Assembly (NCBI GenBank): GCA_020847635.1
Contig: JADLBQ010000031.1
Location: 1-52,709, forward strand
Origin: Bacteroidia bacterium
GTDB taxonomy: Bacteria > Bacteroidota > Bacteroidia > AKYH767-A > OLB10
Length of the DNA: 52,709 bases
Direction: 5' to 3'
Shown here piece by piece: positions 5,293 to 24,089 of this stretch. A program made the translations under genes and the position numbers. Positions within the stretch are counted from its first letter, which is position 1. Each line of letters begins with the position of its first letter. The notes beneath the pieces were generated by a model. That model was not told the DNA's origin. It ran no database searches and saw only the letters and a program-made list of their open reading frames with translations.

Positions 5293-5350
5293 CGCGATTA
5301 AGTAATGAGTTGTTAGTTACTTTTATCGCCAACAAAAATAAAGGGTTCGG

Positions 5351-6511: not shown

Positions 6512-6512
6512 T

Positions 6513-7115
6513 ATGCTTCGAAAACTATATCTTTCTCCTGCCGGTTTGATTATTTCGCTGTTTCAACATGCTTTTTGCTGGTGGCCCCGGCCGTTTATGA
6601 TTTATGGCTATTTTAATGGCTGCTTCGGTAAGTTCAAAAAACACACACGAGTCAGTTCTTCAGTCATCTTAACTAATAAGAACAGAATTAAGATTGCCGA
6701 TCATGTGTGGATTGGCCATTATTGCCTGATTGATGGAATCGGGGGAATTGAAATTGCAGAGGGAGTTCATATTGCTTCACACAGTTGCATTTATACACAC
6801 AGCAGTCATGATTCAATCCGGCTTTTAGGGAGAAAATTTATTGAGATTCAGGCAGAGAAGAGAAAGGGTTATGTCATTAAGAAGGTAAGTATAGGGGAGT
6901 ATAGTTTTATCGGAACTTCTGTAGTTATTCTTCCGGGAGTAAGCATTGGCAAAGGATGTGTGATTGGAGCCGGGAGCGTTATTCATCAGAATATTGATGA
7001 CTACTGTATTGCTGTCGGTAATCCGGCAAAGATTATCGGAAATACTCAGGAAAGAGATCGTAAACTCTTAGACAAGTTTTCTGCTTCAGAGACATATTAT
7101 CTCACCAAAAACTAA
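6513..7115 (+). CDS. Left-handed beta-helix (hexapeptide) acyltransferase, WcaF/MaT-like
   Basis: 200 residues. Hexapeptide repeats run from about residue 55 to 175: IADHVWIGHYC, EGVHIASHSCIYTHSSHD, IGEYSFIGTSVVILPGVSIGKGCVIGAGSV, ending with AVGNPAKIIG, which is the usual end of sugar O/N-acetyltransferases. The histidine in ASHSCIYTHSSHD is a candidate catalytic base. It most likely adds an acetyl group to a sugar of the surface glycan, and could act on the 3-amino-sugar made by the ketoisomerase/aminotransferase pair, where such an N-acetyltransferase is otherwise missing; that link is inference. It sits 1 base after the GT4 gene and 15 bases before the ligase gene. Confidence 0.8.
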   Translation: MLRKLYLSPAGLIISLFQHAFCWWPRPFMIYGYFNGCFGKFKKHTRVSSSVILTNKNRIKIADHVWIGHYCLIDGIGGIEIAEGVHIASHSCIYTHSSHDSIRLLGRKFIEIQAEKRKGYVIKKVSIGEYSFIGTSVVILPGVSIGKGCVIGAGSVIHQNIDDYCIAVGNPAKIIGNTQERDRKLLDKFSASETYYLTKN

Positions 7116-7130
7116 TTTTCTCAGAAAGGA

Positions 7131-8318
7131 TTGAATGATCTGAAAACAAGATTGCTGAATGGGGCCTGGCTGGTTTATTTTATTTCTGTTCCTGTCGGAC
7201 GGCCCTTTACAAGCTGGACGTTAATTCTGCTTGCTGTTGTTCTATTATTCAGTGTTGATTTTAAAAAGGCATTAGCTCTGCCTGGTCTGCTGAGAGAACT
7301 GCTGCCATTTATCGGGTTCTATGTTGTTCTTTTAGCAGGAGTATTTTATTCCGCTAATCAGGTATTCGCCTGGCAGGATCTGTCTGTTAAACTTCCGTTG
7401 TTGCTGTTGCCTTTTTTCTTTCGGGTTTCAGCAATTCCGGTAACAAGCAGGAAAGTGTATTCAACAGGATATATAATTGCTTCAGCCGCAATTGCCGTGT
7501 TTCTGCTGGGTAATGCAACCATTCGGTTCATCAATGGAGTTCAAAACGCTTTTTACTACGACATTTTTTCTTTCTATATACATCCGGCATACCTCTCGTT
7601 GTATTTTGTAACAGCTTTGATATTACTTTTTGAAAATCAGTTTATAGGTTTCAGGCATTATGAGAAAGTGCGTTTGCTGATGATGATTCTGCTTTTAGTA
7701 TGTGTTATTCTTCTTGCCTCTAAGGCAGGAGTCTTGTCAGTGATTCTTGGAGGTCTGGTAATGTTATTTTCAGACAAAATAGTGAGGCCGAAAGTAAGAT
7801 GGCTGACCGTTGTTACTGGTCTAACACTTTTAATCGGTTCATTTATCTTCCTGCCGGTTCATAAGAGAATGATTGAAGCTTATAATTCATTGAAGTATCC
7901 TGAGACATTAAGCCAGCACCAGGAAGGAACTGCCATGCGAGTGCTGGCCTGGAAGACAGCTTTACAGATTTCAAAGGATTACTTCCCATTGGGAACCGGT
8001 ACCGGAGATATTAAGGATGTAACTGTGAAATACTATGAGCAATCCGGATATAATTGGCCGCTATATTATCGTTTGAATGCCCATAACCAATACCTTCAGT
8101 CACTGGCTGCTCTTGGCATAATAGGTCTTGTTTGCCTGCTTTGGATAGTTCTCAGGCCTTTGTTCCGATGGGAAAAGCTCTCTTCAGGAAGTAAAGCATT
8201 TCTGTTGATCTTAATCTTAAACTTGTTTTTTGAGTCAATGTTAGAAGTTCAGAATGGAGCTGTTTTTATTGGGACTATGATCCCTTTCTTTTTTCTTAAA
8301 AATCCAGACAGGCAGTAA
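7131..8318 (+). CDS. O-antigen ligase / Wzy-type polymerase family membrane protein
   Basis: 395 residues with about 10-11 membrane spans and a large periplasmic loop around residues 245-320. The loop and the following helix show the Wzy_C (PF04932) pattern: MRVLAWKTALQI, then PLGTGTGD, then LNAHNQYLQSLAALGIIGL, with the conserved Arg and the His-Asn pair. The protein joins or polymerises glycan repeats on lipid carriers at the periplasmic face; ligase and polymerase cannot be told apart by sequence. The start is TTG at 7131, preceded by AGAAAGGA, one of the few convincing Shine-Dalgarno-like sequences here; the upstream in-frame codons run into the previous gene's TAA. It closes the polysaccharide cluster, just before lipid A synthesis. 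Confidence 0.82.
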   Translation: MNDLKTRLLNGAWLVYFISVPVGRPFTSWTLILLAVVLLFSVDFKKALALPGLLRELLPFIGFYVVLLAGVFYSANQVFAWQDLSVKLPLLLLPFFFRVSAIPVTSRKVYSTGYIIASAAIAVFLLGNATIRFINGVQNAFYYDIFSFYIHPAYLSLYFVTALILLFENQFIGFRHYEKVRLLMMILLLVCVILLASKAGVLSVILGGLVMLFSDKIVRPKVRWLTVVTGLTLLIGSFIFLPVHKRMIEAYNSLKYPETLSQHQEGTAMRVLAWKTALQISKDYFPLGTGTGDIKDVTVKYYEQSGYNWPLYYRLNAHNQYLQSLAALGIIGLVCLLWIVLRPLFRWEKLSSGSKAFLLILILNLFFESMLEVQNGAVFIGTMIPFFFLKNPDRQ

Positions 8319-8392: not shown

Positions 8393-9430
8393 ATGAAATT
8401 TACTGCTGAACAGATCGCAGTTGCCATAAATGGATCAGTTGTCGGAGACAAGACTGTTCAGGTAACACAATTTGCCAAAATTGAGGAAGGGCGGGAAGGT
8501 TCACTCTGCTTTATTGCCAGGGAGAACCTGTTGCATCATCTTGAAGGCAATAAGGCCTCTGTCATTATTCTGAATGAGAGTTTTGAAATACCCAATGGAT
8601 TAAAGGCAACCCTTATCCGTGTGAAAGATGCACATACGGCATTTGTGAGACTGTTGCAATTGTATCACCATTCAAATGAATTACCAACTGGAATAGACGG
8701 GCTTGCCTGTATTCATCCCTCAGCCAAACTCGGCAAAAATGTCTGGGTTGGAGCATTCTCATTTATTGGTAAGGGTGTTGAATTGAAAGACGGGGTAAAA
8801 GTTTATCCAAATGTATTTATTGATGAAAATGTTGTGATCGGGGAAAAAACAATTCTTCATGCCGGAGTTAAAGTTTATCAAGAAACTGTAATCGGGAATG
8901 AGTGTGTAATTCATAGCGGAACTGTAATCGGGGCTGATGGTTTTGGGTTTGCTCCTTCAGGCAGCAGTTTTGAAAAAGTGCCTCAAACCGGGAATGTGGT
9001 AATAAAAGACAGAGTTGAAATAGGTGCAAATACAACGATTGACAGAGCTACCTTAGGAAGTACATTAATTCATGAGGGGGTAAAGCTTGATAACCTGATT
9101 CAGATTGCCCATAATGTTGAAATCGGAGAGAATACGGTAATTGCTGCTCAGACAGGCATTGCCGGTTCCGCCAAAATCGGGAAAAACTGTATGATCGGAG
9201 GCCAGGTCGGTATTGTTGGTCATATTTCAATTGCTGATGGTGTTAAAATTGCTGCGCAATCCGGAATCGGTTCTTCAATTGATACACCGGGTACAATCGT
9301 TCAGGGATCGCCCGCATTTGGAATCGGAGATTATAAAAGGGCTTTTGTAATTTTCAAAAAATTACCTTTGCTCGAACAAAAAATTAATGAATTTGAAAAA
9401 GCCTTGGCTGCTTTCAGGAATTCAGGATAA
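8393..9430 (+). CDS. lpxD: UDP-3-O-(3-hydroxyacyl)glucosamine N-acyltransferase LpxD
   Basis: 345 residues, normal length for LpxD. The N-terminal uridine-binding domain (about 1-100) is followed by a hexapeptide beta-helix (about 105-320) and a short C-terminal helix. The catalytic histidine is His240 in IQIAHNVEIG, and GADGFGFAPSG (residues 180-190) is a family signature. It N-acylates UDP-3-O-acyl-glucosamine in the third step of lipid A synthesis, in the cytoplasm. It is separated from lpxC-fabZ by 6 bases, and the D-C/Z-A order is the standard Bacteroidota arrangement. Confidence 0.97.
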   Translation: MKFTAEQIAVAINGSVVGDKTVQVTQFAKIEEGREGSLCFIARENLLHHLEGNKASVIILNESFEIPNGLKATLIRVKDAHTAFVRLLQLYHHSNELPTGIDGLACIHPSAKLGKNVWVGAFSFIGKGVELKDGVKVYPNVFIDENVVIGEKTILHAGVKVYQETVIGNECVIHSGTVIGADGFGFAPSGSSFEKVPQTGNVVIKDRVEIGANTTIDRATLGSTLIHEGVKLDNLIQIAHNVEIGENTVIAAQTGIAGSAKIGKNCMIGGQVGIVGHISIADGVKIAAQSGIGSSIDTPGTIVQGSPAFGIGDYKRAFVIFKKLPLLEQKINEFEKALAAFRNSG

Positions 9431-9436
9431 TTTATC

Positions 9437-10831
9437 ATGATAAAACAGACAACAATCAGGGAGACAGTTGCAATTGAGGGAATTGGCTTACATACAGGCA
9501 AGCAAACCAAAATCACTTTTAAGCCTGCTCCTCCTAATTTTGGATATAAATTCATAAGAACTGATTTGGAAGGGCACCCAGTTGTGGAGGCTGATGTGGA
9601 TTTGGTTGTAGATACTGCCAGAGGTACTACCCTCGAAAAAAACAATGTTAAAGTAAGTACAACTGAGCATGCGTTAGCTGCATTAGCCGGACTTGAAATA
9701 GATAATGTCATTATTGAACTTGAAGGGCAGGAAATTCCGATTTTAGACGGCAGTTCGGGTCAGTTTATTGAAGCTTTACAAAAGGCAGGAATTGAAGAAC
9801 AGCATGTAGAACGGGAATATTTTGAACTTAAAGAAAATCTGACTTTTGAAGACCCTGACCGAAAGGTTGAAATGCTGGCTGTTCCAAGTGAAGATTTCCG
9901 GGTTACAGTCATGGTTGATTATAATTCGGAAGTACTCGGCACTCAACATGCTCAGATTCATAAAATTGAAGAGTTTTCTGGAGACATTGCTAAATGCAGA
10001 ACCTTTGTTTTTCTTCACGAACTTGAGTCTTTAGCAAAGCATGATCTTATAAAAGGTGGTGATTTAGATAATGCCATTGTGGTTGTCGACAAACCGGTTG
10101 AGAAGACGAAATTGGATGAAATAGCCACAATTCTCAATAAACCTAAGGTGGAAATTGTAGAAAAGGGCTTTCTCAATAATGTTAAACTCCACTTTCAGAA
10201 TGAACCGGCACGCCATAAATTGCTCGATATTATTGGTGATTTTGCATTAATTGGGACACCTATCAAGGCACACATCCTGGCAGCCAGGCCTGGTCACAAA
10301 GCGAATATTGAGTTTGCAAAAAAAATTAAGGAACTGATTAAACGCGAGAAAAAGAAGGTTGTCAGAAATTTTGATTTGACCAAACCACCATTAATGGATG
10401 TCAGTCAGATCATGGAAAAACTGCCTCATCGTCCTCCTTTTTTGTTCATTGATAAAATTCTTGAACTTGAATCGGAAAGAGTCATTGGCGTGAAGAATAT
10501 GAGCATGAATGAGTGGTTTTTTACAGGCCATTTCCCCGGCAACCCTGTCACACCAGGAGTCATTCTGGTCGAAGCAATGGCTCAAACAGGCGGAATACTT
10601 GTTTTAAGTACCATTCCTGATCCGGAGAACTACTGGACTTACTTTATGAAAATTCAAGAAGTCAGATTTAAACAGAAAGTGTTGCCCGGAGATACGGTAG
10701 TTTTCGAACTGAAATTAGCTTCCCCGATTAGAAGAGGTATTTGCCATATGAAGGGTGAGGCATTAGTCAACGGTAAAATTGTTATGGAAGCAGAGATGAT
10801 GGCTCAAATCGCCAGGAAGGATAACAAATGA
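9437..10831 (+). CDS. lpxC-fabZ: Bifunctional LpxC / FabZ (UDP-3-O-acyl-GlcNAc deacetylase and 3-hydroxyacyl-ACP dehydratase)
   Basis: 464 residues fusing two enzymes. LpxC (about 1-305) carries the zinc ligands His78 (STTEHALAAL), His260 and Asp264 (RHKLLDIIGD), and catalytic His287 (ARPGHKANI). After a lysine-rich linker (~300-312), FabZ (about 316-464) carries its active-site His365 in FFTGHFPGNP and Glu379 in VILVEAMAQ. LpxC makes the committed step of lipid A synthesis; FabZ dehydrates 3-hydroxyacyl-ACP. The fusion couples the enzymes that compete for hydroxyacyl-ACP and is a known feature of Bacteroidota. The stop overlaps the lpxA start by 4 bases (ATGA). All key residues are present. 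Confidence 0.97.
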   Translation: MIKQTTIRETVAIEGIGLHTGKQTKITFKPAPPNFGYKFIRTDLEGHPVVEADVDLVVDTARGTTLEKNNVKVSTTEHALAALAGLEIDNVIIELEGQEIPILDGSSGQFIEALQKAGIEEQHVEREYFELKENLTFEDPDRKVEMLAVPSEDFRVTVMVDYNSEVLGTQHAQIHKIEEFSGDIAKCRTFVFLHELESLAKHDLIKGGDLDNAIVVVDKPVEKTKLDEIATILNKPKVEIVEKGFLNNVKLHFQNEPARHKLLDIIGDFALIGTPIKAHILAARPGHKANIEFAKKIKELIKREKKKVVRNFDLTKPPLMDVSQIMEKLPHRPPFLFIDKILELESERVIGVKNMSMNEWFFTGHFPGNPVTPGVILVEAMAQTGGILVLSTIPDPENYWTYFMKIQEVRFKQKVLPGDTVVFELKLASPIRRGICHMKGEALVNGKIVMEAEMMAQIARKDNK

Positions 10832-11616
10832 TTTCTGATTTAGCCTCTGTTCATCCACAAGCCAAAATAGGCTCAAATGTTCAGATTGATCCTTTTGTAA
10901 CTATTCATCAGGATGTTGAAATTGGCGACAATTGCTGGATCGGATCCTCAGCTGTGATTATGGATGGTGCCCGGATTGGAAACGGATGTAAGATTTTTCC
11001 CGGGGCAGTCATATCAGCAATTCCACAGGATTTGAAATACGAAGGGGAGAAAACAACTGTTGAAATCGGTGAGAACACAACCATCAGAGAATTTGTAACA
11101 ATAAATAAAGGAACGAATGCTCTTGGCAAAACAGTTATAGGCAACAATTGCCTAATTATGGCTTATGTTCATGTTGCCCATGACTGTATGATCGGAAATA
11201 ACTGTATTCTGGCTAATGGTGTAACCCTTGCCGGTCATATTGTAATTCATGATTATGCAATTCTGGGAGGCTTAACCGCTGTCCATCAGTTTGTTCAAAT
11301 CGGATCTCATGTTATGATTTCGGGTGGTTCGCTGGTACGTAAGGACGTGCCCCCGTTTGTAAAAGCTGCCCGTGAGCCACTCGCTTATGTAGGAGTAAAT
11401 TCCATCGGTTTGAAAAGACGTGGTTTTAGTACAGAGACAATTAATTCCATACAAGAGATTTACAGAGTGCTGTTCATGGATCAACATTTATACAATAAAG
11501 CATTGGACATCATTGAAGCCGAAATGCCAGCTTCAGATGAAAGGGATGAAATCATCAGATTTGTCAGATCTTCAACAAGAGGTATCATGAAACGATTTAG
11601 TGGAGCAGAAGAATGA
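10828..11616 (+). CDS. lpxA: Acyl-[ACP]-UDP-N-acetylglucosamine O-acyltransferase LpxA
   Basis: 262 residues, typical length. A hexapeptide beta-helix fills about 1-190 and an alpha-helical C-terminus the remainder. His118 in YVHVAHDCMIG corresponds to the catalytic base, and GGLTAVHQFVQIG and NSIGLKRRGFS are family signatures. It O-acylates UDP-GlcNAc in the first step of lipid A synthesis, in the cytoplasm. It is translationally coupled to lpxC-fabZ by a 4-base overlap and followed after 20 bases by an ABC ATPase. Confidence 0.97.
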   Translation: MISDLASVHPQAKIGSNVQIDPFVTIHQDVEIGDNCWIGSSAVIMDGARIGNGCKIFPGAVISAIPQDLKYEGEKTTVEIGENTTIREFVTINKGTNALGKTVIGNNCLIMAYVHVAHDCMIGNNCILANGVTLAGHIVIHDYAILGGLTAVHQFVQIGSHVMISGGSLVRKDVPPFVKAAREPLAYVGVNSIGLKRRGFSTETINSIQEIYRVLFMDQHLYNKALDIIEAEMPASDERDEIIRFVRSSTRGIMKRFSGAEE

Positions 11617-11636
11617 GTGATGCTGAATAAGCAATT

Positions 11637-12233
11637 ATGGATACGTTAATGGTTGACAATATCGGTAAGAAATATTCCGGAAGATGGATTTTCAGGAATT
11701 TAAGCTGCCGGGTAGAGAAAGGGGTACATACAGCTATATTGGGGAAGAACGGAGCCGGTAAATCCACTCTGTTAAAAATTATTTCAGGATATATCACCCC
11801 AAATGAAGGCAGTATAATGGTTGCAGGCAAGCTGATTGATCCTGCTATTGTTGCTTTTAATGCTCCCTATATTGACTTCCCGGAGGAGATGACTCTGAGG
11901 GAGCTAACTGATTTTTATTTCAGTTTTAAAAAGCTGATTCCGGCAACAAGGCCTGAAACTGTTTTTGATGAATGTGGTTTGCTGTTTTCAATGAGTCACA
12001 GGCTAAACAGTTTTTCTTCAGGGATGAAACAAAAAGTAAAATTGTCGCTGTCGTTTTTAACGAGTGCAGAGATTTATCTTTTTGATGAGCCTTCATCACA
12101 TCTGGATGACCAGTCAGTGAAATGGTTTAGGTCTAGAATCTCAACAATTTCAAAAGAGGCATTTGTTTTTATTGGGTCAAACTCTGAAATTACAGAGACT
12201 ACTTCCTGCAGTTTCAGTATTAAGCTAAGCTGA
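11637..12233 (+). CDS. Orphan ABC transporter ATP-binding protein downstream of lpxA
   Basis: 198 residues, a compact single nucleotide-binding domain. Walker A is GKNGAGKST (36-44), the signature is the divergent SSGMKQKVKL, and Walker B is EIYLFDEPSSHLD with the catalytic Glu. The D-loop is present; the H-loop histidine is not obvious in FVFIGSNSEITE, where a Ser/Asn stands at the expected place. No permease gene is nearby. Its position directly behind lpxA suggests a role in handling lipid A or another envelope lipid, but this is context only. It begins 20 bases after the lpxA stop. Confidence 0.85.
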   Translation: MDTLMVDNIGKKYSGRWIFRNLSCRVEKGVHTAILGKNGAGKSTLLKIISGYITPNEGSIMVAGKLIDPAIVAFNAPYIDFPEEMTLRELTDFYFSFKKLIPATRPETVFDECGLLFSMSHRLNSFSSGMKQKVKLSLSFLTSAEIYLFDEPSSHLDDQSVKWFRSRISTISKEAFVFIGSNSEITETTSCSFSIKLS

Positions 12234-12500: not shown

Positions 12501-12887
12501 TTAATCTTGACCGGCAAAATTTTTCTGAAGAAAGTCATCAAAGTTTGACTTTAACTCCCCAAAAAGTCTCTTATATTCATTTAATCTTTCAACACCCTTT
12601 TTATGATTTTTATCCAGTAGCATAGCTTGGCTGGATTCACCTCTTTGATGGGCTTCAATATCATTTTCATGTTGTTTGAAATCATGCCTCATAATATCCA
12701 GTTCATTGCGTTGAACGGTAAATTGGTTTTGAAAGTGTTCAATCAGAACAAGAAGTTCAGGAGCAGGCTTTGACATGATCAGTTCATCCAGTTGATCATT
12801 ACATTTTGAGAGTTCAGCTTTCAGGTTCTTTATCTCCGTTTGCCAAGAGGCATGCTCCGCATGTAGTTTATCAAACGATTCTTTCAT
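12501..12887 (-). CDS. Coiled-coil protein of unknown function
   Basis: 128 residues from ATG at 12887 (MKESFDKLHAEH). Most of the protein is predicted helix with heptad-like spacing of Leu/Ile and charged residues (EIKNLKAELSKCNDQLDELI, then RLNEYKRLFGELKSNF). There is no signal peptide, so it is probably cytosolic. A TTG start at 12920 would add 11 residues but would overlap the upstream small gene more deeply. I do not recognise a family. It overlaps the end of the small membrane-protein frame by 17 bases, suggesting that the two are expressed together and may act as a pair. Confidence 0.55.
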   Translation of the reverse strand: MKESFDKLHAEHASWQTEIKNLKAELSKCNDQLDELIMSKPAPELLVLIEHFQNQFTVQRNELDIMRHDFKQHENDIEAHQRGESSQAMLLDKNHKKGVERLNEYKRLFGELKSNFDDFLQKNFAGQD

Positions 12888-13077
12888 ATGATTTAGTTTT
12901 AAATGATTGCCAAGTAACAAAGACCACGAATACTAATAATGCTACAAAGATTGAAAGAATAAAAATAATTAACAACTCAAAGCAAAACTTATCAGTATTG
13001 GTTACTGAAATCTCAAATCTTACATCTGTAATGTAAAGGGGAATATCTCGAAATAAAAAAACTAGCTGGCTGGACAT
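12871..13077 (-). CDS. Small predicted membrane protein, one span (68 aa)
   Basis: From ATG at 13077 (MSSQLVFLF) the frame encodes 68 residues with one strong membrane span (FELLIIFILSIFVALLVFVVFVTW) and a short basic tail (SFKTKSYERIV). Its 3' end overlaps the coiled-coil gene by 17 bases in another frame, a common layout for small paired genes. No family is recognised. It is divergent from the sorting-domain gene starting at 13109, with only 31 bp between, which leaves little room for two promoters and lowers confidence in this start. Confidence 0.4.
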   Translation of the reverse strand: MSSQLVFLFRDIPLYITDVRFEISVTNTDKFCFELLIIFILSIFVALLVFVVFVTWQSFKTKSYERIV

Positions 13078-13108: not shown

Positions 13109-13549
13109 ATGAGAGTTTCAGCTACAATCACCATCGCATTAGTTTTAACAGTTCTGTTTTCAACTTCAATTTTTGCCCAACAGGTTCAGCAAACACGAAA
13201 ATACCGGGTGATTGCTGTGAAAAACGGGGATAGCCGGGTAACCAGTATGTCAAATGAAACTGAAGTCACTCCAACATTAAATATTTATGTACCAAATACC
13301 TTTACTCCCAATGGAGATGGTATTAATGATTACTTCTTTGTTCAGGGTGAGGCGATTCATTCTTTTAAAATCCAGATTTTTAACCGCTGGGGAGATTTAA
13401 TATTTGAATCAAATGATGTTGCAAATGGTTGGGATGGAAAGTTCAATGGAAATTATGTGCCTCAGGGGGCATACGTTTTTAAGCTTACAGCATCTAGTGT
13501 TACCGGACGAAAAGCATTTAAAGAAGGTGCTCTTAATGTCCTTTACTAA
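13109..13549 (+). CDS. Minimal secreted protein: signal peptide plus CHU_C/gliding-motility-type T9SS sorting domain
   Basis: 146 residues. Residues 1-24 form a signal peptide (TITIALVLTVLFSTSIFAQ). Residues ~28-55 (KYRVIAVKNG...SNETEV) resemble the last two strands of an FN3 domain. Residues ~58-146 form a complete gliding-motility-associated C-terminal (type B T9SS) domain: IYVPNTFTPNGDGINDYF, FNRWGDLIFES, WDGKFNGNYVPQGAYVFKL. That domain is normally the export and anchoring tail of proteins many times longer; here almost nothing else is present. It is expected to cross the outer membrane through T9SS. A good terminator follows at 13652. Confidence 0.82.
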   Translation: MRVSATITIALVLTVLFSTSIFAQQVQQTRKYRVIAVKNGDSRVTSMSNETEVTPTLNIYVPNTFTPNGDGINDYFFVQGEAIHSFKIQIFNRWGDLIFESNDVANGWDGKFNGNYVPQGAYVFKLTASSVTGRKAFKEGALNVLY

Positions 13550-13874: not shown

Positions 13875-16800
13875 ATGATTAAACTGTCTCACTACCTGAA
13901 ACTACTGGGGAAATCAATTTTTTTTCTGGCAGCAAGCTTAAGTTTATCAATTGATTCAAATGCTCAGAACTACTATCCGCGTAGTTATTGGACGTTTGAT
14001 AATCCTGCTAATGTATTCTCTGATTCAATGGGAGTATTTAACATGGACCCGAATTATTATCAATCCGGTTATGTGATTGGGAATAATTCAAACGGAAACG
14101 GAGTAGGCAAATTTTTAACTCTCAACACAACTTCTGGATATATTCGATTGGGTCAACTTCCTACCGATTCTGCATTTACCATTGAATTTCTGTTTCGACC
14201 GGGCTACACATTTAAAGAAACCCGTTTTTTTTATCGGTTGGATGGAGCGATAACGGCAACAATTAATTACCCATACATTAACTTTAATACGACCCACCGG
14301 AGCAATAGTGGTTCCTACATCAGCGATGAACTGAGAATTGATCTTACAGGAATTGGCAGAAAATCATATGGTTATTATGTTGATGGGAACTGGCATCACA
14401 TGGTTTTTAAATTTAATTCTAATAATGGAATAAAGGAACTTTGGGTTGATGGACAATGTCCAGCTGGATTTTCAAAAACGGTTTCCCCTACAGGTTACTT
14501 CCCAAATACCAGTTCAGTAAATAGGGATGTATTATTAAATGCTACAATCCCGTACATCAAGTATTTTGGAGATTATGACGAAATGGCTTTTTATTCGTAT
14601 GGACTTCCTGCTCATATGATTTATAAGCATTATCTTGATTTTATTGCCCACAAGCATTATACCTTTGGAAATACAACGTTAACAGTTCCAACACCGGCTT
14701 CCGTTTCTGGCTCCATCGACCCAAGTGAGTTTCCGCCAGGTCATCCCAATGTAACAGTTAGCGTGCTAGATCAATTAAAAAGTTTCCCGGTACCTCGCTA
14801 TAAACAGGGCCATAATCTTCTACCGAATTTTAACTGGATTGACCCGCTTTACACAAGCAGCTATATGCAGCCCGGAGTCTCAACCAACCAGTCGGTTAAT
14901 AACAGCATTACCTTACAGACAGAACTGGTAAGAAAATTTAATTACATGATTTATTTAGGTTATTCAGGAAGTGCCTGGGGTGATGCCTGGATTGACCTGG
15001 CTAATCAGAATCCATCCTGGAAAGCCAGTACTACTGTGCTTCGTGCCCAAATCGTGAATCCATTGGTTTTTAGTCAGTCACTACCTAATGACCATTATCT
15101 GCAAAACAGTAATGGTCAGTTTATAAATGAGAACGGTGTAGTTACTTCACAAAAGATATGGAGACCAACGGCACCTACTTCCTCCTATGTGAATGATGGA
15201 AAAACAGTACGAAATAATTTAACTGCTGCTTTTGTTGGCAGGTTAACCCGGCCAATTGATTTTGTAAATGAGAACGGTGAAGTATTTCCTCAGATTTTAA
15301 ATACAGCTCTAGCCATGGATCCGGCAGTAACTGCAGCAAAAAATGCTTCAGGTCTGGGCTGGGAAGAGTTTCTTGGTAAGAAATATATGGAACACAGTAC
15401 GATTCCATATCGTGACCAGTTTATGAATTTATCCATCTTCAATTCAAACACGAAATTCTCTGAGTATCGAATTGATGGTCACAGAACTTATCAATTCCGA
15501 TACGAGCAAAGCAGATTAATAAATACTCCTATAAACGGGAAGCGGTATTCAACACTTGATTTCTATGTAAAGAATCCTTATAACTGGAGGTATTGGTCCG
15601 GTCCGTGGCATGGTTGGCAATGGGTTGTCGAATCACGTAAATATGAATTAGCACTTGGTGACAGTTTGTTCTCTCCTTTTGTAAGTGCAGGGTGGGATGC
15701 AGACAATGAAACACACGTAAGGCCGGCACAATACCTTGGGTTAATGAAATGTCTGGGGATGATGGGAGCAGAATTCTATTATCCCGCTTATTTTAATACT
15801 GCCAGTTCGTATCAACCGCCAAACCCTCCACCCAATGACCCGAAAGAGTATATATGGCAGAATATCATTCCTTCTTATGCCCAAGGGATAACAAGTCGTT
15901 ATGAGAATCTGCTTAGAAACGGAATATTACTTGAAGGGGATGTCCCAAATGATCCGTATAACCCGCAATGGAATGCGTATAATTTTTGGACCGGTGATTT
16001 GCGAAAAATAGTTGTAATCCGAAAAGACAGAACAAAGAAGCTTTTTGCCATAACAGGAACAATTCAGCCTAATAGTAATATGGCAGGCAATGCAGAAATT
16101 GAAAGTACAGCTACAATTACATTGGAAGGGCAGACTTTAAAGTTCAAGGTCAGACGTCAGGGTAGTACTTATATTTATGATAACTCCAGCCCTTCAGCAC
16201 CTGTCTTTTACCAACTTGATGAATGGCACCAGTTTCAACATCCTTATTATTGGACAAAGGATCTGAATGTGGAAGCAGAAAATTTCGATCTTGCCGGTAA
16301 TGGAGCTGTCATAAAAACTTCTGTCCCATCGGGTACACCATCCGGTGATTATACCAATTTTACCAGCTATGTTAGTTTTAATTCTGTTGCCGAACTGACT
16401 TATAATGTGGAACCCAGAGGTACGTCAACTTCTAATTATTATTTATGGGTTAGAGCCAGAAGCAAGGACGGTACACCAACCGGGTTTACAGTTACAATGG
16501 ATGGCGGTAATGTTAAAACCTTTGATTGTATAAATGATACAACCTGGGTTTGGTACCGTTTTACTAATACAAATGCTGCTGTTGTTTATACTTCATTATC
16601 ACTGCAAAATCATGTGTTAAGAATTACACCGTCAAATCTGAAAATTGAAATTGATAAGATTTCGCTGATTACTAATTCCAGTAGTTTTTATAACGGAAAT
16701 CCGGCTCCCTGCTCAGGAGCTACAGCCACTATTTCCGCATCCGGCCCGCTGAGTTTTTGTCAGGGAGGTAGTGTAACCTTAACTGCAAGTCAGGGTACTT

Positions 16801-18638
16801 CTTACCTTTGGTCAAATGGTGCAACCAGTAAAAGCATAACTGTCAACACTTCCGGAACATATACAGTTACCGTAAGCAATGGAACAGCTACAGCTGTTTC
16901 AACTCCGGTTTCAGTTACTGTTTCTCCGCTTCCTGTTGTTACCATTACAGCTAATGGATCAACCAGTTTTTGTCCGGGAGGCAGTGTGCTGCTCTCAGCA
17001 AATTCGGCTCAGAGCTATTTATGGTTGCCTGGCGGGCAAACTACCCAATCACTAACTGTCATATCAGCAGGTTCCTATTCTGTGAGAATAACTGATAATA
17101 ATGGATGTTCAAATACTTCATCGCCAACGGTTGTCTCACTTGCCTCTACACCTGCAGCAACGATAACAGCATCCGGCCCAACTTCCTTTTGTCAGGGAGG
17201 AAGTGTCAGTTTAACAGCATCTTCGGGTTCTTCATATCTCTGGAGTAACGGAGCAACAACCAAGATAATTTCAGTAAATTCTCCAGGTAGCTATACGGTA
17301 AGGGTTACCGGAAGCAATGGCTGCTCAGCTACATCAAATGCAACTCAGATTACAGTTCAAACTTTACCTGCTGCATCCATATCAGCTAATGGACCTCTTA
17401 ACTTTTCTCAAGGTGGCAGTGTAATATTAACGGCTAGTAATGGCTCGTCTTATCTGTGGAGTCCGGGCAATCAGACCACCCAATCAATTACAGTCACTGC
17501 TTCTGGCTCATATACTGTAAGGGTAACAGGAAGCAATGGCTGTTCGGCAACATCTTCACCAGCTGTAGTGACGGTTACCAGTGGAACAACATTAGCTATA
17601 ATGCCAAGTGGACCAACAACTTTCTGTAGTGGGGGAAATGTAACTTTATCTGTCCAGGCCGGTACTTCCTATTTATGGTCAACAGGAGCAACATCACAAT
17701 CCATAGTAGTATCTGCTTCCGGAACCTATTCTGCAACCGTTTACTCAGGTTCTGGATCGCTACCTGCAGGGCCTATCACAATAACTGTTAATCCTATACC
17801 AACGGCAACAATAGCAGCAAGCGGGCCAACGACATTCTGTAATGGATCTTCTGTTTTGCTGACAGCCAGCCCAGGAGCTACCTATTTATGGACACCAGGA
17901 GGGCAAACTTCACAATCCATTTCAGTTTCATCTTCAGGTAGCTATTCTGTAAGAGTAACTAATAGTTATGGTTGCTCTGCTACCTCTGCAGTAACTAAGG
18001 TAACTGTTAATAACTGTACTGCCTGTAATGCCCCAACCGGACTTTATACAACTGATGTTAAATCCAACTCTGCTGTTCTAAACTGGACTCCGGTTGTGGG
18101 GGTTAATAACTATCAGGTTAAAATCATAACTGTTAGCACCGGATATACATACACAACTGGTTTGTTTAGCGGATCATTGTCCAGCCTGACCATTGGAGCT
18201 GCACCAAATACAAGATACCGATGGAGAATCCGGTCTTACTGCAATGGACAGTATAGTCGTTGGTCACAATTTAATGTGTTTACTACTCCATCTTTAAAAA
18301 GTATAGCCCAACCGCTTGTTGAAGAATCCGAGAGTTTGAATCTGATTATTGACAGAGATCCTGCTATCAGTGAAGAAACAGAACAGCAGGTATTAGTTCT
18401 TTATCCAAATCCGGTTTCAAATCATCAGTTTAGAATAGAATGGACATCCGATTCAGAAACAAATGGAAGCATCATAATCCGAGATTATACAGGAAGAGTC
18501 ATTTATAGAAAGGAAATTCCTGTTGTTAAAGAGTGGAATTCTTACGATATTAAGCTGCCGGACTGTAAACCGGGTGCTTATTTTCTTCAGTTAATCACTG
18601 ATCGTAAAAATCATTTTGCTAGATTTATAGCTCAATAA
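13875..18638 (+). CDS. Giant multidomain T9SS cargo A: LamG-like, barrel-like catalytic core, CBM-like, six Ig repeats, FN3, sorting domain
   Basis: 1,587 residues from ATG 13875, chosen because a signal peptide follows (cleavage near SNA-Q, ~31). In order: LamG-like jelly roll (~37-256, ending WHHMVFKF...ELWVDGQ); a ~500-residue core (~282-790) that I cannot assign but which has NENGE (Glu466), VVESRKYE (Glu586) and GAEFYY (Glu633), compatible with a glycoside-hydrolase TIM barrel; a CBM6/35-like domain (~798-934, EAENFD start, EIDKISL end); six Ig-like repeats (~952-1380); one FN3 (~1383-1473); a type A T9SS domain (~1507-1587, VLYPNP). Probably an exported, surface-attached polysaccharide-acting enzyme; the enzymatic role is inference. 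The next gene is a paralogue. A strong terminator follows. Confidence 0.85.
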   Translation: MIKLSHYLKLLGKSIFFLAASLSLSIDSNAQNYYPRSYWTFDNPANVFSDSMGVFNMDPNYYQSGYVIGNNSNGNGVGKFLTLNTTSGYIRLGQLPTDSAFTIEFLFRPGYTFKETRFFYRLDGAITATINYPYINFNTTHRSNSGSYISDELRIDLTGIGRKSYGYYVDGNWHHMVFKFNSNNGIKELWVDGQCPAGFSKTVSPTGYFPNTSSVNRDVLLNATIPYIKYFGDYDEMAFYSYGLPAHMIYKHYLDFIAHKHYTFGNTTLTVPTPASVSGSIDPSEFPPGHPNVTVSVLDQLKSFPVPRYKQGHNLLPNFNWIDPLYTSSYMQPGVSTNQSVNNSITLQTELVRKFNYMIYLGYSGSAWGDAWIDLANQNPSWKASTTVLRAQIVNPLVFSQSLPNDHYLQNSNGQFINENGVVTSQKIWRPTAPTSSYVNDGKTVRNNLTAAFVGRLTRPIDFVNENGEVFPQILNTALAMDPAVTAAKNASGLGWEEFLGKKYMEHSTIPYRDQFMNLSIFNSNTKFSEYRIDGHRTYQFRYEQSRLINTPINGKRYSTLDFYVKNPYNWRYWSGPWHGWQWVVESRKYELALGDSLFSPFVSAGWDADNETHVRPAQYLGLMKCLGMMGAEFYYPAYFNTASSYQPPNPPPNDPKEYIWQNIIPSYAQGITSRYENLLRNGILLEGDVPNDPYNPQWNAYNFWTGDLRKIVVIRKDRTKKLFAITGTIQPNSNMAGNAEIESTATITLEGQTLKFKVRRQGSTYIYDNSSPSAPVFYQLDEWHQFQHPYYWTKDLNVEAENFDLAGNGAVIKTSVPSGTPSGDYTNFTSYVSFNSVAELTYNVEPRGTSTSNYYLWVRARSKDGTPTGFTVTMDGGNVKTFDCINDTTWVWYRFTNTNAAVVYTSLSLQNHVLRITPSNLKIEIDKISLITNSSSFYNGNPAPCSGATATISASGPLSFCQGGSVTLTASQGTSYLWSNGATSKSITVNTSGTYTVTVSNGTATAVSTPVSVTVSPLPVVTITANGSTSFCPGGSVLLSANSAQSYLWLPGGQTTQSLTVISAGSYSVRITDNNGCSNTSSPTVVSLASTPAATITASGPTSFCQGGSVSLTASSGSSYLWSNGATTKIISVNSPGSYTVRVTGSNGCSATSNATQITVQTLPAASISANGPLNFSQGGSVILTASNGSSYLWSPGNQTTQSITVTASGSYTVRVTGSNGCSATSSPAVVTVTSGTTLAIMPSGPTTFCSGGNVTLSVQAGTSYLWSTGATSQSIVVSASGTYSATVYSGSGSLPAGPITITVNPIPTATIAASGPTTFCNGSSVLLTASPGATYLWTPGGQTSQSISVSSSGSYSVRVTNSYGCSATSAVTKVTVNNCTACNAPTGLYTTDVKSNSAVLNWTPVVGVNNYQVKIITVSTGYTYTTGLFSGSLSSLTIGAAPNTRYRWRIRSYCNGQYSRWSQFNVFTTPSLKSIAQPLVEESESLNLIIDRDPAISEETEQQVLVLYPNPVSNHQFRIEWTSDSETNGSIIIRDYTGRVIYRKEIPVVKEWNSYDIKLPDCKPGAYFLQLITDRKNHFARFIAQ
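16728..18012 (+). repeat. Six tandem Ig-like repeats (71-73 codons each) in giant protein A
   Basis: Repeat starts at 16728, 16941, 17160, 17376, 17595 and 17808, a 213-219-nt period. Each unit follows the pattern I-x-A-x-G-x-T-x-FC-x-GG-S-V-x-L-T-A, then SYLWS/TxG, TTQSI, GSY-V-V, NGCSAT. The nucleotide similarity between units makes this region prone to recombination and to assembly collapse. Confidence 0.85.
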
Positions 18639-18992: not shown

Positions 18993-21734
18993 ATGACAAA
19001 ATCTTCAACAAATAAAATCATGATGAATAGCTACAAATCTAAACGAATGAATCTTCAATTACTTTACAGGGCTGGTTTGACAATCAGTTTTCTTCTGGCA
19101 GCTCTGTTTTTTTCAACTGTCAGAATTGTGAATGGACAGATTGTAAGACCAGTCAGGTATTATACCTTTAATGGGAATAATCCTTCTGTTGATTCTGTCA
19201 GTAGTGTTAATTTAAACATAACCGCCTATGGCGGTACTGCTTCCCATTTAACCGGTGGTCTGGTTGGTAAGTATATTAGTCTGAAGACATCTGGTAACCT
19301 GATAGACGGAGGAACCTTATTGCTTGATACCGCTCTGACAATCGAGTTCCTGTTCAGAAGTGGCAATTCACCAGGAAATAATGTTAATTCCACGACCTTC
19401 TTCAGAAGGGGAGATGGTGTATTTGATATTCAGTTTGCTTATCCGAATTTTTATTTTAAAACCTATTATAAGAGTAGTTCAGGATCGTATGTACTGGATG
19501 AAATGACAGTGACGTTAGACGGAGTTGGCCGTAAATCGTACGGTTATTACACCGATGGTAACTGGCATCACCTGGTCTTTCGATTTAGCGGAAACTCCGG
19601 GAAAAAAGAAATTTGGGTTGATGGACAGCTTCCAAATGGTTTCAGCAAGACTGTTGCAACAGGGTATTTTGAAAATCCTTCTAATGGGAACAGAACATTT
19701 TATGTAAATCACATGGTTCCTTATCAGAAAATTCTGGGCGATTTGGATGAATTGGCAGTTTATAATTATGGAATTCCTGCTGCATTGATTTATAAACATT
19801 ATACTCAGGCTCAGCAGGGACTACCGTATAGTTTTACAAACGATTATTTAGGGACTTTGCCTGCACCATCTCCGGTAACAGCTGGAATTGATATCAATGA
19901 ATTCCCGATTGGGCATCCAAACCCGACTGAATCTGCAACTGATCAGCTTAGGCATTATCCATCTCCCCGGTTTAAACCGGGTCATACCATGTATCCTAAT
20001 TTTCAATGGATTGATCCGCACTATTTTGCAAGCCGCTTACAACCGGGTATCAGTGATGCTGTTGCTATCCAGAACAGTATCAACATTCAGACCGAGCTTG
20101 CTCAAACTTATAATTACATGCTGTATATCGGTGGAGATGCAAATTTTAATTCTGCATGGAAGAACCTGGCTAATCAAAACCCCCAATGGAAGGTAGGTAT
20201 GATTACACTGCGTGCTCAGATTCCTACTAAGTTGTGGAGTCAAAGCCTTCCAAACGATCATTACCTGCAAAATTCAAATGGACAATATCTAAATGCTAAC
20301 GGGACCGTTCAGAATGGTAAGTTCTGGCGACCAACCGCTCCATTATCCTCCTTTTCATCAGATGGTTCAACAATGAAGAGCAGAGTACAAAGCGCTATTT
20401 CAGGATTAAACCGGCCTCTTGATTTGATCAATGAAAATGGAGAAGTGTTTTATTTGTATCAGAATAGCGCAATGGCATTAGACCCGGTTGTTACAGCTGC
20501 TAAAAATGCATCAGGACTGGGATGGCAGGAATTTTTAGGATCTAAAGTTGCCGAAAATGAAATTGCTTACCGCGATGCCATATTGAGTTTACCTCAATTA
20601 GCGAATACCGCATTCTCTGAATATCGGATTGACGGCCAGCGTGACTGGAGTTTCCGGTATGAGTATATGCGTAATGTTATGACCCCGATTAATGGAAGAC
20701 GTTATGCCACCTCTGATTTATATCCAAGATGGCCGTCTAACTGGAAAACATGGAGTGGTCCTTGGCACGGAATCAAATGGATGGTTGAATCTCGCCACTA
20801 CGAGATTCAGGCTGGCGACAAGTTGTTTTCTCCGTTTGTAGCAGCAGGTTGGGATGCTAATCCAGAAAATGATATTCGTCCGGCACAATGGATGGGTCTG
20901 TTAAAGTTGATGGGAATCCTGGGAGCTGAATTCTATTATGCAGGTTATTTTAATGAAGCCAGCAGCTATATGCCTCCTAATCCTCCTCCCAATGATCCAA
21001 AAGGCTATGCATGGCAGGCTGCTATTCCTGCATATGCTCAGGCAATAACAAGCAGATATGAAGACATTTTAAAGAATGGCAATGTACTGCCCGGAGATAT
21101 GATGAATGATTATGTGAGTCCTACCTGTCCGGGCTATCAGTTTTCTGCAGGTGACGTCAGAAAAGTAGTCATGGTACGTAAACTGGATAATGTTGAGCGC
21201 TATGCAATTAGCGGAACGATTCAGCCGAATACCAATATGATTGGGAATGTTGAACCGGAAGGTGATGCAATGATCAGTTTGAATAATCAGACTTTGAATT
21301 TTAAAATTCGTAAACAGGGGAGTACCTACATTTATGATAATTCTTCACCTTCAAATCCGATTTTTTATCAGTTAGATGCTTGGCATGAGGCTTCTCATCC
21401 CTCACGCTGGTCAGATGATTTTAATATTGAAGCAGAACTCTATGACAATTCTAATGTAACTTATAATCTGAAAACAACTGTTCCGGCTGGTACACAGGCT
21501 GGTGATTACCGAAATTTTACTACATGTATAACTTTCCCGAATAACCAGACTTCGTTTACACCTATTGAGTATCAGATTAATATTCGCAAAACTGCGCAGT
21601 CAACCATGTATTTCTGGGTCCATGCTCGTTCTCGCAGTGGTCAGACAGGAATGTCTGTTTCAATGGATAACGGTTCATCTAAGAATATTGGCTGTATAAA
21701 CGATACCAATTTGGTTTGGTACAGACTCGATTGA
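18993..21734 (+). CDS. Giant multidomain protein B, N-terminal part (ends at an in-frame TGA)
   Basis: 913 residues, then TGA at 21732-21734; the same frame continues to 24089. The signal peptide lies near residues 19-48 (LTISFLLAALFF..VNGQ), and ATGs at 19020, 19023 and 19047 are alternative starts. The LamG-like domain and the barrel-like core are collinear with paralogue A and share NENGE (Glu481), VESRHYE (Glu599), GAEFYY (Glu646), ASSYMPPNPPPNDPK and QGSTYIYD. The stop falls inside the CBM-like domain, just before its final strands. The product as read would lack the Ig repeats and the sorting signal, so it could not be attached by T9SS. Whether this is a real nonsense mutation, readthrough or a sequence error cannot be decided here. 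Confidence 0.8.
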   Translation: MTKSSTNKIMMNSYKSKRMNLQLLYRAGLTISFLLAALFFSTVRIVNGQIVRPVRYYTFNGNNPSVDSVSSVNLNITAYGGTASHLTGGLVGKYISLKTSGNLIDGGTLLLDTALTIEFLFRSGNSPGNNVNSTTFFRRGDGVFDIQFAYPNFYFKTYYKSSSGSYVLDEMTVTLDGVGRKSYGYYTDGNWHHLVFRFSGNSGKKEIWVDGQLPNGFSKTVATGYFENPSNGNRTFYVNHMVPYQKILGDLDELAVYNYGIPAALIYKHYTQAQQGLPYSFTNDYLGTLPAPSPVTAGIDINEFPIGHPNPTESATDQLRHYPSPRFKPGHTMYPNFQWIDPHYFASRLQPGISDAVAIQNSINIQTELAQTYNYMLYIGGDANFNSAWKNLANQNPQWKVGMITLRAQIPTKLWSQSLPNDHYLQNSNGQYLNANGTVQNGKFWRPTAPLSSFSSDGSTMKSRVQSAISGLNRPLDLINENGEVFYLYQNSAMALDPVVTAAKNASGLGWQEFLGSKVAENEIAYRDAILSLPQLANTAFSEYRIDGQRDWSFRYEYMRNVMTPINGRRYATSDLYPRWPSNWKTWSGPWHGIKWMVESRHYEIQAGDKLFSPFVAAGWDANPENDIRPAQWMGLLKLMGILGAEFYYAGYFNEASSYMPPNPPPNDPKGYAWQAAIPAYAQAITSRYEDILKNGNVLPGDMMNDYVSPTCPGYQFSAGDVRKVVMVRKLDNVERYAISGTIQPNTNMIGNVEPEGDAMISLNNQTLNFKIRKQGSTYIYDNSSPSNPIFYQLDAWHEASHPSRWSDDFNIEAELYDNSNVTYNLKTTVPAGTQAGDYRNFTTCITFPNNQTSFTPIEYQINIRKTAQSTMYFWVHARSRSGQTGMSVSMDNGSSKNIGCINDTNLVWYRLD

Positions 21735-21764
21735 TGTACACAGCAACCCATATTATTTAATTCA

Positions 21765-24089
21765 TTGAGTGTTGGTAGTCATACTTTGAGAATTACACCG
21801 TCAAACAGTATGCTAGAAATTGATAAGATTGTTTTAGCAGTAAGTCTGTCTACCGGATTCTCACCACAAGGTGCCAATTGTAATGCTGGTGGCTCAGCAA
21901 TTATTTCTGCAAACGGTCCAACCTCATTCTGTCAGGGAGGAAGTGTGATGCTTACTGCTTCAGCAGGCACTTCCTATCTGTGGTCAACCGGAGCAACCAC
22001 CCAGTCAATCAATGTAAATTCAACTGGTAATTATGTTGTGACTGTTCAGAATGGTTCCTCATGTGCAGGAGTATCAGCACCTCTTACTGTTACTGTATCA
22101 TCCTCACCGGCAGCCTCAATTACAGCAAATGGCCCGACCAGTTTCTGTCAGGGTGGCAGTGTAACACTTACGGCATCTTCAGGGAGTTCCTATTTATGGT
22201 CAAATGGTGCTACCAGCCAGTCAATTTCAGTATCGACTACCGGCAATTATTCAGTACGGGTATCTGTATCTTCAGGTTGTTCGGCAGTTTCAATTCCTGA
22301 AACTGTAGTGGTGCATGTACCCTCAACACCTGTCATTTCAACCTCTGGCTCAACAACTTTAAATCCGGGTCAAACGGTAATGCTTACTTCATCACCTGCA
22401 GTTTCATATTTATGGACTCCCGGAAGTGCAATAACACAGTCAATAACAGTAGGTGCAGCTGGAAGTTATTCGGTGAAAACAACAGATGTGAATGGATGTG
22501 AAGCTACGTCTGCTTCAGTAAATGTTCAGGTAAACCAGGCTATCCCGGTTTTAATTACAGTTTCAGGAAATACAAGTTTTTGCCAGGGCGATTCCGTACA
22601 GCTTACTGCTTCTCCGGGGTTCACTTATTTGTGGCTACCCGGCCTGCAAATGACTCAGTCTATCTATGTAAAAGAATCAGGAACATATACTGTTCAGGCT
22701 TCCAATGGTACATCGGCACAGGTAACAGTCAGTGTGTTTGACAGACCTATGAAGCCTGAAATTACGTATTCATACATTCCAAATTCAGCCTACCAGCTAA
22801 CCGCTTATGAACCTTCTGCAGTTTCTTATTATTGGTCAACAGGTTCAACTCAGCCAACGATTACAGTTTCATCAGCGCAGACAGTTTCTGTAACTGCATT
22901 TGCATCCTCAGGTTGTATAAGTGCTGCTGCTTCCATATCTGTGCCGGCTCCGGTTTCAAAATATTGCGGAACACCCACTATGCTGACAGCATTCAACATC
23001 ATTGATAATGCAGCCACTCTTGCCTGGAATCCTGCAATAACTGCAGATTCGTTCTATATTTATTACTCAGTTGCAGGACAAAGCATGAACAATGTAGCTA
23101 TTGTAAGCGGAAATTTATCCTCTGTAAGAATTGACGGACTGAATCCCGGAACAACCTATAATTGGTTTGTAAAAGCAGTATGCTCAGGTTCAAATCCAGG
23201 AAGCAATGTCAGTTCATTTACAACTTTATCAGGTCCTCTTTCATGCTCATCAACTCCCGTTAATCCAATAACAGCAGAAGTTTTCGAGCGTAATGTAAAG
23301 CTTAGCTGGTATCAGACATCTGCCCAGAAATACAGAATCAGATTTAAGGCTGTTAATTCCCAAAGCTATTCATACAAGTATATCAGTGCTGTATATAATC
23401 CGGATTATGCTTTTTTGGTAAACCTGTTGCCGGCAACTACTTACGAATGGGCTATTCAGGGAATTTGTAATGGAACTAAAACAGCATTCTCAAAGAAGAT
23501 GTACTTTACAACATTTGCGTTATGTCCGTTTCCAGCCCCGGTTCTGATTCAGGATATCACACATAAACATGCTATGGTATTGTGGGATGGTAATAGTGCA
23601 GCCGATACATTGATTATCCATTATGGTATTGTAAGCCCCTCCAGTATCAAACGTTATAAGAAGGTAGTTCAGGCTGGCAGTTTTGGTAAAACCAGCTTGA
23701 ATAATTTGGATCCTGAAACTGATTACTGGCTGATTCTTCGTTCGAAATGTTCTTATGGCGGCCGTTCTGATTGGTCAGATACGCTTTATTTTAAAACTTT
23801 GGCAGCACCTGTACCTCGCAGCATTGAACCAGATAATGCGATGCAGTTGAATCTATATCCGAATCCGGCACGTAATACCGTAACTTATGCATTTGTCGCA
23901 GAGAAGGAGGCTCCGGTTCGAATCCGTATCAGTGATATGGCTGGTCGTGAATTGTTTGTCAAAGAAGCGAGTGCCTATCAGGGTGAAAACTCAGGACAAT
24001 TGGATGTTTCAACATTTGCTTCAGGTATTTATATCGTGATTGTTGAGCAGGGTTCTATATCCGGACGTTTTAGGTTAAATGTCCGTTAA
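21765..24089 (+). CDS. Giant multidomain protein B, C-terminal part (Ig repeats, three FN3, T9SS sorting domain)
   Basis: Read from the first possible start codon (TTG 21765) after the in-frame TGA; 774 residues, the same frame as the preceding ORF, with the 10 codons between also open. It begins inside the CBM-like domain (SHTLRITPS..LEIDKI) and has no signal peptide, so alone it would be a cytoplasmic fragment. Then come five Ig-like repeats (the fifth degenerate), three FN3 domains (starting SKYCGTPT, PLSCSSTP, CPFPAPV) and a type A T9SS domain (LNLYPNPARN to the end). It is best treated as the second half of one gene covering 18993-24089. Paralogue A has six Ig and one FN3, so the two differ in linker modules. 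A terminator follows at 24109. Confidence 0.75.
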   Translation: MSVGSHTLRITPSNSMLEIDKIVLAVSLSTGFSPQGANCNAGGSAIISANGPTSFCQGGSVMLTASAGTSYLWSTGATTQSINVNSTGNYVVTVQNGSSCAGVSAPLTVTVSSSPAASITANGPTSFCQGGSVTLTASSGSSYLWSNGATSQSISVSTTGNYSVRVSVSSGCSAVSIPETVVVHVPSTPVISTSGSTTLNPGQTVMLTSSPAVSYLWTPGSAITQSITVGAAGSYSVKTTDVNGCEATSASVNVQVNQAIPVLITVSGNTSFCQGDSVQLTASPGFTYLWLPGLQMTQSIYVKESGTYTVQASNGTSAQVTVSVFDRPMKPEITYSYIPNSAYQLTAYEPSAVSYYWSTGSTQPTITVSSAQTVSVTAFASSGCISAAASISVPAPVSKYCGTPTMLTAFNIIDNAATLAWNPAITADSFYIYYSVAGQSMNNVAIVSGNLSSVRIDGLNPGTTYNWFVKAVCSGSNPGSNVSSFTTLSGPLSCSSTPVNPITAEVFERNVKLSWYQTSAQKYRIRFKAVNSQSYSYKYISAVYNPDYAFLVNLLPATTYEWAIQGICNGTKTAFSKKMYFTTFALCPFPAPVLIQDITHKHAMVLWDGNSAADTLIIHYGIVSPSSIKRYKKVVQAGSFGKTSLNNLDPETDYWLILRSKCSYGGRSDWSDTLYFKTLAAPVPRSIEPDNAMQLNLYPNPARNTVTYAFVAEKEAPVRIRISDMAGRELFVKEASAYQGENSGQLDVSTFASGIYIVIVEQGSISGRFRLNVR
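21900..22965 (+). repeat. Five tandem Ig-like repeats in giant protein B
   Basis: Repeat starts near 21900, 22119, 22335, 22554 and 22761 (207-219 nt apart). The first two units are very close to those of paralogue A (FCQGGSV, SYLWSNGAT). The third lacks the FC cysteine, and the fifth is degenerate and keeps only the YYWSTGST core. Confidence 0.8.

Follow-up and report, generated by a model that had tools for sequence, protein, structure and literature searches.

What is the function of the central part of proteins A and B, two secreted proteins encoded by neighbouring genes on the same strand of the 52,709-nucleotide stretch of Bacteroidia DNA analysed here (the window)? The original prediction had singled out a collinear core common to both proteins, which it could assign to no family and which it proposed as a possible new glycoside hydrolase (GH). 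The two genes and their parts are as follows, in window coordinates:

13875-18638, + strand: gene of protein A (open reading frame, 1587 aa), encoding in order a signal peptide, a LamG-like domain, barrel, beta-sandwich, CBM-like domain, PKD/Ig-like repeats, fn3 and a T9SS type A tail
13968-14639, + strand: LamG / concanavalin-like N-terminal domain of A, by homology to the B domain (50% identity)
14763-16004, + strand: predicted (beta/alpha)8-type barrel of A, core residues 22-435 (AlphaFold, Foldseek)
16005-16214, + strand: predicted beta-sandwich of A, directly 3' of the barrel, with a strongly conserved RQGSTYIYD (AlphaFold strands 436-505; conservation in 50 homologues)
16272-16649, + strand: CBM-like beta domain of A, beginning with EAENFD and also present in compact homologues
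16650-18014, + strand: PKD/Ig-like repeats of A (PF00801)
18399-18620, + strand: T9SS type A C-terminal sorting domain of A (PF18962, TIGR04183)
18993-24089, + strand: gene of protein B, paralogue of A, with one in-frame TGA
19320-19772, + strand: LamG-like domain of B (Laminin_G_3, E 1.2e-4, 22.7 bits against a cut-off of 27.6)
19875-21539, + strand: core of B, with barrel (19935-21161), beta-sandwich and the start of the CBM-like part (58% identity to the A core)
21732-21734, + strand: in-frame TGA within the CBM-like domain of B (a sense codon in a same-genus relative)

Judged from their sequences, A and B are paralogues along their whole length, from signal peptide through tail. The A core (14700-16400) aligns with that of B over its full length (567 residues, E 6e-220), and every motif listed as common to the two proteins was found in both, in collinear order. 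The collinear core is confirmed, its proposed start at 14719 being off frame by 1-2 bases, which is immaterial; the homology, however, is not confined to it but runs from LamG to tail, with identities of 50% in the LamG domain, 58% in the barrel, 63% in the beta-sandwich, 46% in the CBM-like domain, 45% in the PKD repeats and 27% in the tail. Since identity extends beyond the core, both genes would derive from duplication of one whole ancestor. A same-genus genome and a further genome (G309) each have two copies; in the tree, the first of these groups with A and the second with B, which indicates a duplication older than these genera.

The accessory domains were recognised to different degrees. 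Protein A gave PKD (2e-11), Por_Secre_tail (3e-9) and weak fn3 matches in Pfam, and TIGR04183 (4e-12) in NCBIfam. Laminin_G_3 did not match A and remained below its cut-off in B, while two homologues exceeded it (L124, 32.5 bits; L136, 32.0 bits). The CBM-like domain of A showed weak matches only, to CBM60 and to the solved CBM 2w3j (E 0.11).

The core of B lies 5' of the TGA at 21732. Because the same-genus relative has a sense codon at this point and stays in the same frame, the interruption is a single in-frame TGA, and a B gene with two compensating frameshifts was rejected for the same reason. Either a genuine nonsense mutation or an error of assembly could account for the TGA. In the comparison of the window with the same-genus genome, pN was 0.12 for the A core and 0.10 for the B core, with pS of 0.82 and 0.79, respectively; pS being saturated, no dN/dS ratio is given. 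By this comparison both cores are clearly under purifying selection.

We then asked whether the core belongs to a family already described. Neither single sequences nor profiles placed it in a family among 24,736 Pfam models; the same was true of 18,950 NCBIfam models, where the hits on A and B were confined to the T9SS tail and one repeat. Pfam matches on A were limited to PKD, the T9SS tail, a repeat or weak hits, and on B to the weak Laminin_G_3. Nothing significant was found among all PDB chain sequences with single sequences or with 36- and 50-row profiles, and compact homologues had no Pfam or NCBIfam match over the core. Weak matches to SalCis12 (9rce, E 0.16 and 0.056) and small Pfam matches were taken as chance. 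Profile comparison with hhalign gave probabilities of 0.1% against six GH42 proteins (PF02449) and 0.2% against six GH36 proteins (PF02065), a weak test with such small profiles; neither family gave a Pfam match either. In the literature we found no described family matching the core. The view that the core cannot be assigned therefore holds for Pfam, NCBIfam and PDB sequences, where no confident hit to an existing family emerged. These results argue against the core being a member of an already named CAZy family, in which case it would work as that family does. Such a family could nevertheless be a recent GH family lacking a Pfam model or solved structure, as families that have neither escape both the sequence libraries and Foldseek; we regard this as rather unlikely.

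AlphaFold modelled the A core, with 28 aligned homologues, at pLDDT 85.9 and pTM 0.89, and the barrel alone, with 50 homologues, at pLDDT 92.8 and pTM 0.91. The order of secondary structures fits an eight-stranded barrel followed by a beta-sandwich at core residues 436-505. The core is confidently predicted to be a (beta/alpha)8-type barrel plus beta-sandwich, in line with the barrel initially expected. Barrel strands were numbered from the predicted secondary structure, strand 4 covering core residues 186-191, strand 6 residues 287-289 and strand 7 residues 327-329, with strand 8 near 357-358.

In Foldseek searches against the PDB, GH151 (6tvk) came first with both the core (E 7.6e-6) and the barrel (E 3.8e-5), with prob 1.00. 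The next matches were GH30, GlgE, GH42, GH36, GH31 and GH14; GH13 and some isomerases were also found, and the majority of leading matches were glycoside hydrolases. TM-scores to known hydrolases were 0.27-0.45 and rmsd at least 7 Å, so that the match is to the barrel class of fold and to no single family. A search of a viral structure library gave nothing useful for the core. The presence of L-rhamnose isomerase and beta-1,2-glucosyltransferase structures among the matches could suggest another TIM-barrel sugar enzyme, isomerase-, lyase- or transferase-like, instead of a hydrolase. The top-ranked matches are hydrolases, however, and T9SS secretion together with carbohydrate-binding-like domains fits action on a polymer better than isomerisation of a small sugar; we consider a non-hydrolase of this kind very unlikely. 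With a predicted barrel, structural neighbours that are mostly glycoside hydrolases and no sequence family in Pfam, NCBIfam or the PDB, the proposal of a possible new GH family stands.

To locate a candidate active site, we used conservation among 50 homologues, down to about 31% identity. The positions concerned are:

15270-15281, + strand: ENGE motif of A at the end of strand 4, with Glu466 and Glu469; candidate catalytic acid
15558-15560, + strand: Asp562 of A (core 287), strand 6; Asp in 43/50
15771-15773, + strand: Glu633 of A, in GAEF (core 358), strand 8; Glu in 47 and Asp in 3 of 50
20442-20444, + strand: Glu484 of B, counterpart of the invariant A Glu469
20928-20930, + strand: Glu646 of B, counterpart of A Glu633

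In clan GH-A glycosidases, the acid/base belongs to an Asn-Glu pair at the end of strand 4, and the nucleophile is a Glu at the end of strand 7. The original prediction had applied this scheme to Glu466, Glu586 and Glu633 of A, whose numbering is correct. Glu466 (core 191) indeed falls on strand 4 and is acidic in 49/50 homologues (Glu 44, Asp 5, Cys 1), but the Asn before it (core 190) is found in only 29/50, and the invariant acid is Glu469 (core 194), the second Glu of ENGE, which is Glu in 50/50 and is the sole invariant Glu of the barrel. Glu586 (core 311, in VES) lies in a predicted helix and is Glu in 21/50, and was rejected as nucleophile. Glu633 fared better, being Glu or Asp in all 50, but it is on strand 8 instead of 7; the strand 7 region reads P-F-V-x-A-G-W, and no Glu is conserved after it in the 50 homologues. 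Strict membership of clan GH-A was rejected on these grounds, the variable Asn at 190 and the lack of a conserved strand-7 Glu; the part of that assignment that survives is the barrel, with TM-scores below 0.5.

Conservation is not restricted to the acids. Tyr, Trp, Gln and Arg residues are conserved near predicted strand ends, and the RQGS and QLDxWHxxxHPxxW segments 3' of the barrel are as conserved as its best positions. A further homologue, from genome G671, carries TENGEVF and GADFF. Asp562, absent in 7/50, and Glu633, replaced by Arg in a phage copy that keeps core residues 191, 194 and 287, are points against the proposed catalytic pair.

We favour, with a probability of roughly 0.55, a core that serves as catalytic module in a secreted hydrolase active on polysaccharides and belonging to a family outside Pfam, NCBIfam and PDB coverage. 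Catalysis by the core and the choice of residues are our inference from this pattern: Glu469, at the end of strand 4, would be the putative catalytic acid, with Glu633 (strand 8) or Asp562 (strand 6) as partner and Glu466 adjacent. The changes of candidate acids in the phage copy and in a few members could instead indicate a catalytically dead barrel, used for binding or as a structural element within a surface adhesin whose LamG, barrel, CBM and PKD domains together hold cells to polysaccharide; LamG, CBM-like and PKD domains are binding or stalk modules, and the long homologues are surface proteins of giant size. Yet one Glu invariant in 50/50, a second site that is Glu or Asp in 50/50 and conserved Tyr, Trp, Gln and Arg exceed what a scaffold needs, and compact forms of about 680 aa have no stalk. 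We judge a dead barrel unlikely, although it is the strongest of the alternatives considered.

The architecture of homologues helps to define the unit concerned. All members have the barrel, beta-sandwich and CBM-like domain. Compact forms (about 660-710 aa) consist of a leader, the core and the CBM-like domain, and retention of these parts alone suggests that they form the functional unit. A LamG domain is added to this build in family f56, and LamG, PKD-like repeats and a T9SS tail in the host's family (f1), likewise in the f59 protein examined. In three genomes (G311, G312, G314), the core of the second copy starts within about 55-90 residues, without LamG. T9SS tails were present in 22/22 long homologues scanned, and the models PF18962 and TIGR04183 score above cut-off in A. 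For the favoured hydrolase, the catalytic unit would thus comprise the barrel, the C-terminal beta-sandwich and the CBM-like domain, in both A and B preceded by the LamG-like domain and followed by a PKD-repeat stalk and the T9SS signal. With such a build, A and B would probably be attached to the cell surface, where the enzyme would meet extracellular polymers.

The distribution of the core is uneven. In the host's family, a profile search found it in 21/24 genomes (18/19 good ones), mostly in two copies, which lie close together on one contig in ten genomes; none of 18 other genomes of the host's order had it. A class-level search matched 37/395 genomes: seven of the host's family, one marginal match (G427, E 0.003) that was discounted, and 29 others. 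Outside the host's family this amounts to 29/388, in families f56, f59, f69, f73, f78, f86 and f93, the protein often being a compact form of about 680 residues. In f73, 14/36 genomes have the core, and in f56 10/13. A phylum-wide draw yielded G671 as sole match besides the window, suggesting a patchy family. Named matches were uncultured Bacteroidetes/Bacteroidia MAGs including OLB10, and one labelled Chitinophaga pinensis; a further two, both distant, bear the labels Chitinophagales and Flavobacteriales. A single-sequence search of 297 phylum genomes was unproductive, as was a plasmid search for the core. One genome (G317, contig C14, L056) carries an additional copy that looks broken, being split into several pieces and containing an internal stop.

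The genomic neighbourhood of A and B includes:

8393-12233: lpxD, lpxC/fabZ and lpxA with an ABC ATPase, close upstream; gene order conserved in most of the relatives read
13109-13549, + strand: 146-aa protein made up almost entirely of a signal peptide and an isolated CHU_C T9SS type B domain (PF13585, 3e-21), a syntenic neighbour of A in relatives

In most genomes of the host's family that were read, the order is lpxD, lpxC/fabZ, lpxA, ABC ATPase, small coiled protein, 146-aa CHU_C protein, A and B; one genome (G308, L070) and one L037 copy are exceptions, lying among other genes. The small coiled protein (window 12501-12920, opposite strand) is conserved beside the locus in relatives and has no Pfam match. 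Also encoded in the window (26211-27842) is a protein of 543 aa in which the T9SS tail is the sole Pfam domain. Two f56 genes (L123, L124) lie among glycosyltransferase genes. No SusC/SusD pair was recognised by eye near A and B, in about a dozen loci of the family or in the compact-form loci listed, and in most of the neighbourhoods listed the gene had no further polysaccharide-degrading gene next to it. The lipid A gene neighbourhood, the glycosyltransferase context of some relatives and the lack of SusCD in readable neighbourhoods lead us to speculate that the substrate might be the cell's own or a neighbour's surface polysaccharide sooner than plant polymers.

The core also occurs in a phage genome. 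A 42-kb viral contig with terminase and portal genes (IMGVR_UViG_3300031999_000063, L142) encodes at 4254-8255 a homologue of 1333 aa, with a leader-like start, LamG-like part, core and CBM-like part and no T9SS tail recognised by Pfam. It is placed, with weak support, among sequences of the host's family. A first viral scan with a narrower profile had been unproductive.

A fuller proposal, which we hold only tentatively and at less than even odds, is that the core founds a new GH family, perhaps even a new clan whose acids lie on strands 4 and 8. The enzyme would be inherited vertically and displayed on the surface of nearly all members of a single uncultured Bacteroidota family, would remodel surface or matrix polysaccharide and would have been acquired by a phage of these bacteria. 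If active, the core would define a new enzyme family, carried by about one in thirteen of the Bacteroidia genomes sampled outside the host's family. As the gene of the host's family mostly occupies a fixed site beside lipid A genes instead of a feeding locus, it could point to an enzyme shaping the matrix of the cell or its neighbours. Compact homologues of about 680 residues make the function directly testable.

Several known systems bear comparison with A and B. The central domain matches no family in the libraries searched, whereas the secretion tail and modular build are those of T9SS type A cargo with LamG, PKD and CBM modules. GH99 enzymes carry on their barrel an ExxE motif in which both Glu, at positions i and i+3, are catalytic; the spacing recurs in A as E466-x-x-E469, but 6/50 homologues have Asp or Cys at position 466, and GH99 was absent from the top 50 Foldseek matches of core or barrel. 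GH30 xylanases (7N6O, 4UQA) resemble the whole core in having a barrel and a beta domain (Foldseek E about 1e-4 to 9e-4), but with a TM-score of about 0.3, and the core lacks the clan GH-A nucleophile of strand 7. The GH42 beta-galactosidase 4UOQ, of clan GH-A, matches the barrel (E 1.1e-3, prob 1.00, TMq 0.45) and has a Glu ending strand 4; it differs in that the core has no conserved strand-7 Glu, and the weak six-sequence test found no profile relation. GH36 and GH31 (clan GH-D) share a barrel with a C-terminal beta domain, and the core could have its acids on strands 4 and 6, but its strand-4 acid is Glu instead of Asp and the weak test showed no profile relation to GH36. The best Foldseek match, for the core and the barrel alone, is the GH151 alpha-L-fucosidase ALfuk2 (6TVK). 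The TM-score is 0.37-0.44 with 10-11% identity, and GH151 has an extra middle domain; both nevertheless combine a barrel with a C-terminal beta-sandwich, the GH151 barrel being N-terminal (PMC10154630). GH151 uses an Asp nucleophile on strand 4 and a Glu acid/base on strand 6 (PMC10154630), whereas the core has a Glu on strand 4 (50/50) and mostly an Asp on strand 6 (43/50).
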